Of a stretch of 41,430 bases of DNA, positions 18,460 through 29,200 are shown one piece after another. The notes under the pieces were generated by a model that was given only the letters and a program-made list of their open reading frames with translations, was not told where the DNA came from and ran no database searches. The translations under genes and the position numbers were made by a program. Source of the stretch: Candidatus Kuenenia hertensis (GTDB lineage Bacteria; Planctomycetota; Brocadiia; Brocadiales; Brocadiaceae); assembly GCA_021646465.1 (NCBI GenBank), contig SOET01000038.1, forward strand, positions 1 to 41,430, given 5' to 3'. Numbering within the stretch: the first letter of the stretch is position 1; every line of letters begins with the position of its first letter.

Positions 18460-18932
18460 TACAAGGATCCTAAATGTTCGCTTTATATAGAGAATATCTG
18501 GCTTCAGTTGAAAATAAGTGTTTATAAAAAAATTTGTTGTAAATTTGCGAAATTTTCCGAAACAATCTGAACAAAAAATCTCCGAAGAAGGAGTAAAAAA
18601 AGCATTACGTTTATAAATTGATGAATTCTTTTTCCCCATTATTTTTATCATCCTCGTTATTTCCGCCTTTTTCTCTTTCCGAAAAAATAGCTTTCTTTTT
18701 CTTAAACAAGACACAATTAGATTATGTTAAAAGACTGCGTTAGAAAATTTTTTGAAAAAAATATTGAATTGTTCTGAATTTATGTCGATAAAAAAATCAG
18801 ATGCACAAAATAGAAAAGAGTGTGTATGGACACGACTAGTCAGTCTAAAAGGTAATTTAGCAGATTTAATTGTGATAGTGTAGTATCCGTTAAAGGAATA
18901 CGGGAAACATTTTAAGACAAGGAGGTTGGGAT
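18460..18932. other. Intergenic region upstream of flagellin 1
   Basis: These 473 AT-rich bases carry a sigma-28-like site at 18765-18791 and the flagellin ribosome binding site (AAGGAGG). I see no gene in it. The RNA from the site would have a leader of about 130 bases, long enough for post-transcriptional control. Confidence 0.5.
18765..18791 (+). promoter_or_regulatory. Sigma-28-like promoter of flagellin 1
   Basis: TGAA (18765-18768), exactly 15 bases, then GTCGATAA (18784-18791). The flagellar sigma-28 consensus is TAAA-N15-GCCGATAA, so each half has one mismatch and the spacing is exact. It faces the flagellin gene 141 bases upstream of its ATG. Confidence 0.5.
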
Positions 18933-19835
18933 ATGTCAAGAATTAATACAAACATTAATGCGTTAAATGCGTTGAGGTCATTAAATGACATCAACAATAA
19001 CCTTTCAGTTTCGCAGCTAAGGCTGGCAACGGGTAAGAGGATTAATAATGCAGCCGATGATGCTGCGGGTTACACGATTGCCAAGAAATTCAATGCACGT
19101 TCCCAGGGGTTGGGCCAGGCTTTGGCGAACATAGGATCTGCCAAAAATCTTATGTCTGTCGCAGAAGGTCACTTAAATAATATTCTTGATATTCTGACAC
19201 AGATGAAGACAAAGGCAACGCAGGCGGCAGACGATTCGTTAGGGACTGCAGAGCGCAGTGCAATTCAGTCTGAGTTGCAGGCATTAGGAACCCAGATTGA
19301 TCTTGAAGTTACTCAGGCGACATGGAATTCAAATTCAATATTTGGTTTAGGTAATTCTACAACTACGGCAGGAGCCGCAAGCAGTGTACAGTTCAAATTC
19401 CAGATTGGCGCCGGTGCAAGCAGCACCAATGATGTGTTGAAGTTTGATTTGTTACAGAAGAGCAATGTGAGCCTTGAGTCTGGCAATACGAACTTTAAAG
19501 CAGCTGGATTGAGGGTAAGTGTTGCAACGGCGGGCAGGGCTGTTACTTCCTCTGCATCAGCGCAGGCATTGATGGGTAATATAGACACCGCCATTGCGGA
19601 TGTATCAGAGGCATTAAGTTACATTGGTTCCGTAGTAAACAGATTAACATACCAGGAAACCAGTTTGACGGTAGCGAGAACAAATACAGAGGCGGCAAGG
19701 AGCAGAATTGAGGATGCTGATATGGCATATGAGCAATTGCAGGCGACAAAATTGCAGATATTACAGCAGACGGCAAGTGCGATGTTGGCGCAGGCAAATG
19801 CAGGTCCTCAGTCTATCTTACAACTCTTCGGTTAA
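18933..19835 (+). CDS. fliC: Flagellin (copy 1)
   Basis: This is the filament subunit, 300 residues. The N-terminal D0/D1 part reads RINTNINALNALRSL and LATGKRINNAADDAAGYTIA. The C-terminal part has ARSRIEDADMAYEQLQATK and LQQTASAMLAQANA. The variable middle is short (about 150-210), typical of a small flagellin. AAGGAGGTTGGGAT precedes the ATG. A strong terminator follows at 19853. It is about 90% identical (roughly 30 differences) to the second flagellin on the opposite strand at 26130-27032. fliD, fliS and flaG follow. Confidence 0.97.
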   Translation: MSRINTNINALNALRSLNDINNNLSVSQLRLATGKRINNAADDAAGYTIAKKFNARSQGLGQALANIGSAKNLMSVAEGHLNNILDILTQMKTKATQAADDSLGTAERSAIQSELQALGTQIDLEVTQATWNSNSIFGLGNSTTTAGAASSVQFKFQIGAGASSTNDVLKFDLLQKSNVSLESGNTNFKAAGLRVSVATAGRAVTSSASAQALMGNIDTAIADVSEALSYIGSVVNRLTYQETSLTVARTNTEAARSRIEDADMAYEQLQATKLQILQQTASAMLAQANAGPQSILQLFG

Positions 19836-26063: not shown

Positions 26064-26099
26064 AAAAAAAGGCCGTTTTATTGATAAAACGGCCTTTTT
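26064..26099 (-). terminator. Strong terminator after flagellin 2
   Basis: GGCCGTTTTATTGATAAAACGGCC (26071-26094) forms a GC-based hairpin. On the minus strand it is followed by seven T. A-runs and T-runs on both sides make it potentially bidirectional. It separates flagellin 2 from the GT2 gene. Confidence 0.9.
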
Positions 26100-26129: not shown

Positions 26130-27032
26130 TTATTGAAAGAGCTGCATTATAATTTGAGGACTGGCATTTGCCTGGGCAAGCATGGCGCTTGCTGTTTGTT
26201 GTAATATCTGCAGCTTGGTTGCCTCTAATTGTTCATATGCCATGTCAGCATCCTCAATCCTGCTCCTTGCCGCATCTGTGTTCGTTCTTGCCACCGTTAA
26301 ACTGGTTTCCTGGTATGTTAACCTGTTTACTACTGAACCAATGTAACTCAAGGCCTCTGATACATCCGCAATGGCGGTGTCTATATTACCCATCAATGCA
26401 AGTGCAGACGCATTTGAACTAACCGCCCTGCCGGCCGTTCCAACACTTACCCTCAATCCATCCGCTTTAAAGTTTCTGTTACCAGACTCAAGACTCACAT
26501 TGCTCTTCTGTAGCAAATCAAATTTCAGCACATCATTGGTGCTGCTTGAACCGGAGCCAATCTGGAATTTAAACTGAACACTGCTTGCGGCCCCTGCCGT
26601 AGTTGTAGAATTACCTAAACCAAATATTGAATTTGAATTCCATGTGGCCTGCGTAACTTCAAGATCAATTTGGGTCGCCAATTGTGACAATTCAGCTTTT
26701 ATGGCATTGCGTTCCTGGGTTCCAAGTGAATCATCTGCAGCTTGTGTAGTCTTTGTCTTCATTTGTGTCAAAATGTCAAGGATATTGTTTAGATGACCTT
26801 CTGCTACTGCCATTAGATTTTTTGCTGAACCGATGTTTGAAAGTGCCTGGCCAAGACCCTGTGAACGGGCATTAAATTTTTTGGCAATAGAAAATCCTGC
26901 AGCATCGTCTGCTGCTGTGTTAATTCTCTTGCCTGTTGCCAATCTTAATTGGGATACAGACAAGCGGTTGTTAATATCATTTAATGATTTCAATGCGTTT
27001 AAAGCACCGATGTTTGTATTAATCCTGCTCAT
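26130..27032 (-). CDS. Flagellin (copy 2, inverted)
   Basis: The protein has 300 residues and the same length as copy 1. It shows RINTNIGALNALKSL at the N-terminus and ARSRIEDADMAYEQLEATK with LQQTASAMLAQANA at the C-terminus. The two copies differ at about 30 residues, spread over the whole length, so they are recent paralogues or are kept similar by gene conversion. AAGGAGGTTTTAAA precedes the ATG. It starts 43 bp after the HD-GYP stop, which leaves little room for its own promoter and suggests co-transcription. Surface-exposed differences lie mainly in the middle segment. Confidence 0.97.
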   Translation of the reverse strand: MSRINTNIGALNALKSLNDINNRLSVSQLRLATGKRINTAADDAAGFSIAKKFNARSQGLGQALSNIGSAKNLMAVAEGHLNNILDILTQMKTKTTQAADDSLGTQERNAIKAELSQLATQIDLEVTQATWNSNSIFGLGNSTTTAGAASSVQFKFQIGSGSSSTNDVLKFDLLQKSNVSLESGNRNFKADGLRVSVGTAGRAVSSNASALALMGNIDTAIADVSEALSYIGSVVNRLTYQETSLTVARTNTDAARSRIEDADMAYEQLEATKLQILQQTASAMLAQANASPQIIMQLFQ

Positions 27033-27075
27033 TTTAAAACCTCCTTGTTAAATGTAATAAACTGATTCTGTATTT

Positions 27076-28785
27076 TTATAGAGAAATTCCATTTACGCTT
27101 GCATTAAGAAAACTTATGAATTTTTTTAATATATCATTATCAAAACTCCCGTCCATTTTTCCTACCATATACTGTAATACCTTGAACGCTGAATTTTGTT
27201 CGTATAGAGAGTCCCTGGACATTTGCAACTCGTATTCGTCTAGGATATGAGTTATACGGCTATAAAGGTGAATTTCTTCACCAAACATGCCTTCCGGATA
27301 ACCTTTTCCATTGAATTGTTCATGATGTTGTTTTGCGATAAGACAAGCTTCTTTAGGAACAATATTATTTTTAGATAAAAGAAAGTATCCTAGTTCAGCA
27401 TGTTTCTTAAAGGTCTCTTTTTCTTGTTTTGATAGGTTTTCCACATTTTCTTCAATAATAGTATTCGTGTTTAGGCATGTGAACCCGATATCGTGAAGTA
27501 ATATGCCGGCGCCTAATATTGCAAGATCTTTCTTTGAATATCCTAAATAATACCCAAATAATATGCCGAGTATGGCCATATTTACGGAATGATTAAATAC
27601 TTTTCCATTGTATTTTAATGTCCTTATGAAATGTGAGTGGCTTTCCTGATTTATTACTACAAAGTCTAACATTGTCGTTGTCCATTCCCGTGCTCTTTCG
27701 GCAATGATATTGATGTTAGTGTTTTTGTGCGCATCATTTATTATATTTGATGCAATATCGTATAATATGTGTGCTCTTTCCTGTAATTCTACTGTTCCGT
27801 CATGAACAAACTGTCCCATGTTTGTTTCCATATATCGAAGGTATTGCTCAGTGCCATTTTTTGCGACATATATTCTGTTAATATTTTTCCTTACGAAAGA
27901 TTCTTTCCTCTCATCTTCCAGCAATTTAAAACCTTTACAGTACAGTAGATGCTTGACTTCATTGTTTACAATGGTTTGTAAATATAAATCACATCCGGCG
28001 AAAGCTCCTGCTTTAATACTTCTTAAAGTTGCAGGAAGATATTTATTGTTTTCGTTGTAATAATTCAATGTAAGCTGTTCTAACGTGTTTCCTCCCTTTA
28101 CGCTTTCTGATAAATGGGAATTCCCAATAGCAATGGAGGTATAGGCAGCAATCGTTTCCAAAAACCTGGCATCATCTGTTCCGTATACATTTCCGGCCTT
28201 TTTGTTGCTCACGCTTATAATTCCCGCAACCTTCCCTTTTGTTTTAATGGGGACGCAAAGAATTGTTTTTCCAAGTATCCAGTTGGATTGGCTCTGTTTA
28301 AAACGGGGGTCTTTGTTGATGTCATTTACAACAAGGGTGGTTCCATGTTTTATTGCCCATTTGAGAATGCTGTCATTTATTTTGAGCGATGTATTACCGG
28401 TGCTATGGTTTGCAATACCTTCCGAAGTTTTTAACAACAGTTCATTATCATTATTAATCAATGCTATAATACCAGCTGTACTTCCTGTGCCGTTTATAGT
28501 GAGATTGTTAATAAGTGGAAAAAGCCGATCGACTTCGATTTGTGAAATTAATGCGTGGCCAACCTCCTTGATGCTCAAATTCTTAATGTTTGTAATAGAA
28601 TCATTGTTTCTAATGCTTAAAGAGCGAGGACGCTGTAATAAATGATATAAACTGGTAAGCCTTTTAATATCAGACAATGAATCCTGTACTTTTTGAAGAT
28701 CTTTTTGTATCTCCGGGTTTAAATCCTTTGTAGATTCCAAATATCTTTTATGATAAACAGGCATTTTTAACGTATTTGTTGTCAT
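27076..28785 (-). CDS. GAF-HD-GYP cyclic-di-GMP phosphodiesterase
   Basis: This is a 569-residue protein. A GAF domain lies at about residues 75-215 (VDRLFPLINNLTINGTG through AAYTSIAIGN). An intermediate helical region precedes the HD-GYP domain (about 380-545) with HSVNMAIL, LLHDIG near residue 429, KHAELGYFLL, HHEQFNGKGYP near residue 494, and RITHILDEYE. All key residues of an active HD-GYP domain, which breaks down cyclic-di-GMP, appear present. AGGAAAACCAAC precedes the ATG, and a sigma-54 site lies about 80 bp upstream. It lies directly before flagellin 2, suggesting control of motility or of the switch to sessile life. Confidence 0.92.
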   Translation of the reverse strand: MTTNTLKMPVYHKRYLESTKDLNPEIQKDLQKVQDSLSDIKRLTSLYHLLQRPRSLSIRNNDSITNIKNLSIKEVGHALISQIEVDRLFPLINNLTINGTGSTAGIIALINNDNELLLKTSEGIANHSTGNTSLKINDSILKWAIKHGTTLVVNDINKDPRFKQSQSNWILGKTILCVPIKTKGKVAGIISVSNKKAGNVYGTDDARFLETIAAYTSIAIGNSHLSESVKGGNTLEQLTLNYYNENNKYLPATLRSIKAGAFAGCDLYLQTIVNNEVKHLLYCKGFKLLEDERKESFVRKNINRIYVAKNGTEQYLRYMETNMGQFVHDGTVELQERAHILYDIASNIINDAHKNTNINIIAERAREWTTTMLDFVVINQESHSHFIRTLKYNGKVFNHSVNMAILGILFGYYLGYSKKDLAILGAGILLHDIGFTCLNTNTIIEENVENLSKQEKETFKKHAELGYFLLSKNNIVPKEACLIAKQHHEQFNGKGYPEGMFGEEIHLYSRITHILDEYELQMSRDSLYEQNSAFKVLQYMVGKMDGSFDNDILKKFISFLNASVNGISL

Positions 28786-29200
28786 GTTGGTTTTCCTCGC
28801 TACTGAGTAGAATTTAAATTTGGTAATTCTAAGGAGAACAATTTCATCTGTTCGGTAATTCTCGCAAGGAATGTGCCAAATGTGATTTTAAAGACAGGAT
28901 TGCGGATGTGAATTTAGATAACACAAATAAATTCAATGAGATAGATGGGTTTGTAGAGTTGAGGGATATATTTTGAAACGTTAATAATTTCTACATTCGG
29001 TAGGTGAGGAAGTAATTTTTTCCGATTTTCAGGAAATATATTCTGTGTTTTTTTCTTTTGAAACCAAGGGAGTGTTTTTTTAATGTTTTTGACGTAAAAT
29101 GCTCTTTAAGACGGTTTTTGAGAAGGAAACAGACAGGAGTGAAAAGCTATATAATGGCAGTGGTATGTGGTATTTTGAAATTAAGTTTATGCTATGATGA
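28786..29200. other. Intergenic region with regulatory site
   Basis: These 415 bases lie between the 5' end of the HD-GYP gene and the 3' end of ribBA, both minus strand. Besides the sigma-54 site at 28864-28879 I see no gene. A plus-strand open frame at 29058-29252 lacks support. No clear terminator for ribBA is visible. Confidence 0.5.
28864..28879 (-). promoter_or_regulatory. Sigma-54 promoter of the HD-GYP/flagellin 2 unit
   Basis: On the minus strand this reads TTGGCACATTCCTTGC. It matches TTGGCAC-N5-TTGC in every consensus position, with GG and GC 12 bases apart (-24/-12). It faces the HD-GYP gene, with the predicted start of RNA about 70 bases before the ATG at 28785. Confidence 0.8.

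Follow-up and report, generated by a model that had tools for sequence, protein, structure and literature searches.

A single enhancer-dependent sigma-54 program probably makes a HD-GYP protein together with flagellin 2, and also flagellin 3 from a separate locus; flagellin 1 would be made by sigma-28 under CsrA/FliW control. We hold this reading with good confidence from comparative sequence analysis, and the evidence is given below.

The window, the whole stretch of 41,430 nucleotides analysed here, corresponds to contig C34 in a genome of 4.17 Mb. This genome encodes the hydrazine synthase alpha family, which is missing from 14 control genomes, and the host is therefore an anammox bacterium. 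The genes in the window run in the order chemotaxis genes, flagellin 1, fliD, fliS, flaG, two glycosyltransferases, flagellin 2 and a GAF-HD-GYP gene, with ribBA beyond. Elsewhere the genome contains rpoN (Sigma54_DBD match, E 3e-60), fliA (the sigma-28 gene) and genes for 24 sigma-54 activators with a GAFTGA-like loop. The csrA and fliW genes are neighbours and follow a gene that we take to be flgL; this is the fourth Flagellin_N match of the genome, on contig C12, with Pfam Flagellin_N and weak Flagellin_C matches, and its assignment, which is not certain, follows from its position ahead of fliW and csrA. The features of the HD-GYP and flagellin 2 region are as follows.

28984–29036, minus strand: two-part upstream element, a putative enhancer, with TTTCCTGAAAATCGGAAA (29036–29019) and then TGTAGAA from 28995; at a near-fixed distance, and common to the flagellin 3 promoter
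28864–28878, minus strand: sigma-54 -24/-12 element TGGCACATTCCTTGC; predicted transcription start at about 28852
27076–28785, minus strand: GAF-HD-GYP gene, 569 aa, a predicted cyclic-di-GMP phosphodiesterase (Pfam GAF_2 and HD_5; conserved motifs)
27033–27075, minus strand: gap of 43 bp separating flagellin 2 from the HD-GYP gene; it contains ribosome site ACAAGGAGGT, and neither a sigma-28 nor a sigma-54 site was recognised in it
26130–27032, minus strand: flagellin 2, 300 aa (Pfam Flagellin_N and Flagellin_C)
26066–26099, minus strand: intrinsic terminator 3' of flagellin 2, with a 15-bp stem

The sigma-54 site and its conservation

The original prediction placed a sigma-54 site ahead of the HD-GYP gene, and its location is borne out (TTGGCACATTCCTTGC, minus strand, 28879–28864). 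Positions 28864–28878 match the core TGGCAC-N5-TTGC at 10/10 bases, with GG and GC at fixed spacing. The longer sigma-54 consensus is YTGGCACG-N4-TTGCW, from which two flanking bases depart (A for G and G for W), and the claim of a full fit to the consensus holds for the core but not for these flanks. The site begins 93 bp ahead of the HD-GYP ATG and is the sole core match with 0 or 1 mismatch on either strand of the window; it is directed, as had been proposed, at the HD-GYP gene (ORF 27076–28785) with flagellin 2 lying 43 bp behind. Genome-wide there are 11 exact core matches, compared with about 3.8 expected from the base composition of the fetched pieces, and seven of the 11 have an ORF of 139 aa or longer beginning 79–165 bp downstream; these ORFs include fliK, a flagellin and the HD-GYP gene itself. 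Allowing up to one mismatch yields 207 matches in the genome versus 147 for a reversed-pattern control; this excess is modest, and sequence alone would therefore not settle the sigma-54 site, but conservation does.

We compared a family set of 33 genomes, 19 of which (this one included) have an orthologue of the HD-GYP gene at 43% identity or more. A site matching 9–10 of the 10 core bases lies upstream of the orthologue in all 19, and within 150 bp of the aligned HD-GYP start in 17 of them, compared with 38 of 3956 control windows (150 bp, same loci, both strands); the 19 genomes are related, and these counts are non-independent trials. The conservation spans four genera, and in the alignment the flanks have diverged, with conservation confined to the -24/-12 bases, the upstream element and a handful of further columns. 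The two exceptions have the site 743 bp (G029) and 482 bp (G031) upstream of the HD-GYP gene, apparently due to inserted DNA. G031 also carries a second, partial HD-GYP copy (L063) with no site above 8/10 in the 1.5 kb upstream; counting this copy, the site is present upstream of 19 of 20 HD-GYP copies. On the strength of these comparisons we regard the site at 28864–28878 as real.

Repeat-like DNA of the GGGCTAAAGCCC type is inserted between the promoter and the HD-GYP gene in two genomes (L134 and L139). In 12 loci from other genera (L133–L141, L143, L144 and L146) the sigma-54 promoter is itself preceded, on the same strand, by another, shorter HD-GYP gene; no strict sigma-54 site was found within 500 bp upstream of this shorter gene in 13 loci, 11 from relatives and two from this genome.

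The residues H431 and D432, H462, H487, H488 and E489, and GYP at 495–497 are invariant in an alignment of eight proteins that includes one paralogue. Because the HD, HHE and GYP motifs are intact, the protein is predicted to break down cyclic-di-GMP, in keeping with its original description as a cyclic-di-GMP breakdown enzyme.

The two-part upstream element and flagellin 3

Upstream of the HD-GYP promoter is a two-part element, TTTCC-N6-12-GGAAA followed by TGTNNAA, which occupies the stretch 114–159 bp before the -24 box. Its GGAAA half sits at -141 to -145 relative to that box in 18 of the 19 genomes, and the TGTNNAA half falls between -130 and -90 in all 19, compared with 2, 0 and 0 of 19 for three other 40-bp stretches; the halves are 27–28 bp apart. 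The strict TTTCC-GGAAA repeat is present in 15 genomes, TTTC replaces its first half in one more, and three have no repeat by that pattern. A strict one-part form of the pattern gave two genome matches, one of them on contig C37, and the two-part pattern was used thereafter. This has 14 matches in the genome versus one for its reversed control, and a sigma-54 site follows within 260 bp at only two of the 14, namely those ahead of the HD-GYP gene and flagellin 3. None of the other nine exact sigma-54 sites, and neither of two one-mismatch sites tested, is preceded by the element. In relatives, three pairings of element and sigma-54 site lie inside flagellin coding sequence (L142, L143 and L155) and look like chance.

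Flagellin 3 (contig C62, L159) has an exact sigma-54 site 121 bp ahead of its ATG in addition to the two-part element, and its orthologues in two sister species have the same element with sigma-54 sites of 9/10 and 10/10. In these three species the GGAAA half is at -134 or -135 and the halves are 27 bp apart, such that the element sits about 10 bp nearer the -24 box than at the HD-GYP promoter of this genus. We infer that the element is the binding site of one activator serving both the HD-GYP and the flagellin 3 units.

The element could instead be an operator for a repressor, or an additional promoter, a somewhat unlikely reading. By eye, a TTTACA separated by about 18 bp from a TAAT-rich box resembles a sigma-70 promoter in several relatives, although in this genus the spacing and bases do not fit. 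Moreover, a TTTCC/GGAAA inverted repeat at 114–159 bp upstream suits an activator site, and both pairings of element and sigma-54 site in this genome belong to flagellin units.

As to the activator that would bind there, 10 of the 24 candidates were scanned for identity, and none of the 25 matches listed for each reached its curated cut-off. In G024 a sigma-54 activator gene adjoins flagellin 2 (L148, 8790–10508, minus strand); its product is 52% identical to two activators of this genome (L107 and L121) and 49% identical to a third, and is a lead only to the cognate activator.

The flagellin 3 leader contains a conserved TTTTTGCTATAGCAACAAAAA inverted repeat, and of three short folds one places its ribosome-site GGA in a loop, as does a longer fold of this genome's leader. 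Another flagellin-like gene, L166 in G019, has a sigma-54 site of no more than 9/10, and this lies 329 bp upstream. A search of named genomes gave two distant matches.

Transcription of flagellins 2 and 1

Flagellin 2 is the next gene after the HD-GYP gene, on the same strand, in 19 of the 19 genomes with the orthologue. Among 20 flagellin 2 upstream regions none has a sigma-28 score of 13/16 or higher and none has a sigma-54 site, and in the window the gap between the two genes contains no terminator-like match. Because of this synteny, with neither a recognised promoter in the gap nor a terminator between the genes, co-transcription of the HD-GYP gene and flagellin 2 is the simplest reading, and the earlier proposal that flagellin 2 is made together with the HD-GYP enzyme is supported at the sequence level. 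The flagellin 2 coding sequence holds two weaker terminator-like matches on the same strand, with the strong one following at 26066–26099.

It is also conceivable, albeit unlikely, that sigma-54 drives the HD-GYP gene while flagellin 2 relies chiefly on a promoter of its own, located in the gap or within the 3' end of the HD-GYP gene. The best candidate for such a private promoter is a 9/12 sigma-70-like match, with extended -10, inside the end of the HD-GYP gene at 27155–27128. In other genera the distance from the HD-GYP stop to flagellin 2 is about 78–263 bp, leaving room for an unrecognised promoter, and many of these gaps contain an inverted repeat resembling GAATAAC...GTTATTC (by eye). 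In G011 an ORF replaces the HD-GYP gene upstream of flagellin 2 (L149, 11876–13714); it has a weak DDE transposase match of 21 bits against a cut-off of 23. However, in this genus the gap is only 43–44 bp and a sigma-70-like match within it overlaps the start codon, the number of sigma-70-like matches in the region is 11 compared with a shuffle mean of 12.0, and the absence of a sigma-54 site or a sigma-28 score of at least 13/16 extends to all 20 flagellin 2 regions. We note that the GAATAAC...GTTATTC-like repeat, with variants, is seen by eye in the gaps of L133–L141 and in none of this genus.

A chance origin of the sigma-54 site itself is very improbable: composition predicts a few exact matches in the genome and the one-mismatch count exceeds its control only modestly, but the site has been kept in four genera while its flanks diverged, and it has the shared upstream element attached.

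Flagellin 1 has different signals, with the following features.

18765–18791, plus strand: sigma-28-like site of flagellin 1, TGAATTGT-N11-GTCGATAA, 12/16
18887–18925, plus strand: flagellin 1 leader of CsrA-type layout, with a GGA-loop hairpin at 18887–18903 and ribosome site ACAAGGAGG at 18917–18925
18933–19835, plus strand: flagellin 1, 300 aa, 90% identical to flagellin 2

The two flagellins had been called almost identical; they are alike, but the identity of 270/299 residues (90%) makes that description too strong. The sigma-28 consensus is TAAAGTTT-N11-GCCGATAA, and the flagellin 1 site is degenerate, being the eighth best in the window by a matrix built from relatives; its score of 12/16 is also reached by five of the 20 flagellin 2 regions. 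All 16 regions in the matrix carry TAAA-N16-CCGATAA, eight regions having been left out beforehand (four of this genus, three of G014 and one of G024). Of 24 flagellin 1 regions, 20 score 13/16 or more (13–15/16), usually some 165 bp ahead of the ATG, as against 0 of 20 flagellin 2 regions. What gives weight to the weak site of this genome is that strong sites occupy the corresponding position in relatives; the sigma-28-like site originally reported is thus present, but weak when taken alone in the window. The broader claim that the flagellins have different promoter classes is supported by these sigma-28 counts and by the sigma-54 site in 19 of 19 HD-GYP/flagellin 2 units.

The flagellin 1 leader has a GGA in the hairpin loop in 23 of 24 leaders, the GGA having been lost in G020. 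Across the 24 leaders, 10 cells of the hairpin, a local one picked by eye, changed on both sides compared with a shuffled mean of 3.0; the structure that RNAalifold itself proposes is weak (-0.75 kcal/mol). With GGA in a loop, GGA at the ribosome site, and csrA and fliW in the genome, the leader is predicted to be under CsrA-type translational control. The flagellin 2 leader has no hairpin and only the ribosome-site GGA. Downstream of the sigma-28 site and ahead of the leader hairpin lies GACTAGTCAGTC (18834–18845), which is inverted-repeat-like, recurs by eye in many flagellin 1 leaders and is possibly an operator.

Proposed regulation and comparison with known systems

In the regulation we propose, sigma-54 RNA polymerase would bind 28864–28878, and an activator of the enhancer-binding class acting at 28984–29036 would open the promoter, with RNA starting near 28852. 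A single transcript would run through the HD-GYP gene and flagellin 2 to end at the terminator at 26099–26066, and the same activator probably also turns on the separate sigma-54 promoter of flagellin 3 on contig C62. Through the HD-GYP protein the cell would reduce its cyclic-di-GMP, favouring motility, while these flagellins are made. Flagellin 1 would be transcribed by sigma-28 and then restrained post-transcriptionally through predicted CsrA binding and FliW. The filament proteins flagellin 1 and flagellin 2 can thus probably be made under different conditions, and perhaps at different times. Anammox bacteria grow as granules and biofilms. More tentatively, the sigma-54 program might couple cyclic-di-GMP breakdown to an alternative filament of flagellins 2 and 3, apart from the sigma-28/CsrA-controlled flagellin 1, as a switch for dispersal from granules or biofilm; we consider this possible rather than likely.

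A literature search covering titles and abstract openings, with few subscription papers, returned none on flagellar control or promoters in anammox bacteria, and no sigma-54 HD-GYP-flagellin unit or its element. Splits of flagellins between sigma-54 and sigma-28 have been described before; what appears new within that search is the HD-GYP-flagellin unit together with its shared element. There is now a testable promoter, an upstream element, 24 candidate activators and a predicted phosphodiesterase, which may link the choice of filament to leaving the biofilm, and the element could help to find the flagellar activator in bacteria for which genetic tools are scarce.

E. coli PdeH (YhjH) is a flagellar-class phosphodiesterase, an EAL enzyme under sigma-28. 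The likeness is that a cyclic-di-GMP breakdown enzyme, here a predicted one, is turned on with flagellar genes, although in our case it is a HD-GYP protein under sigma-54 with a flagellin behind it. The presence of csrA, fliW and a leader with a GGA hairpin and a GGA ribosome site parallels the hag-FliW-CsrA system of Bacillus subtilis; relative to that system, flagellin 2 here lacks the hairpin, flagellin 3 has its ribosome-site GGA looped in some folds, and CsrA binding is predicted.

PMC9303241 describes Vibrio cholerae flaA as controlled by FlrC and sigma-54 and flaB-E by sigma-28, a similar division of several flagellins between the two sigma factors; unlike that arrangement, a sigma-54 flagellin here forms a unit with the HD-GYP gene ahead of it, and an upstream element is common to the two units with sigma-54 flagellins. 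Campylobacter jejuni has flaA under sigma-28 and flaB under sigma-54 (PMC9481697), and its flaA leader is CsrA-bound according to PMC4894983; the likeness is one sigma-28 flagellin with a GGA hairpin leader and one sigma-54 flagellin, whereas here there are two sigma-54 flagellins, a HD-GYP gene comes first in one unit, and fliW and csrA are together. Sigma-54 is generally tied to flagella, as noted in PMC3162934.

Two other loci of this genome also have sigma-54 sites. On contig C7 (43880–45032, L024) a one-mismatch (TTGT) site that is without the two-part upstream element starts 154 bp before the ATG of a second HD-GYP gene, and on contig C67 (L160, gene from 3789) fliK-flgD-flgE lie behind an exact site.
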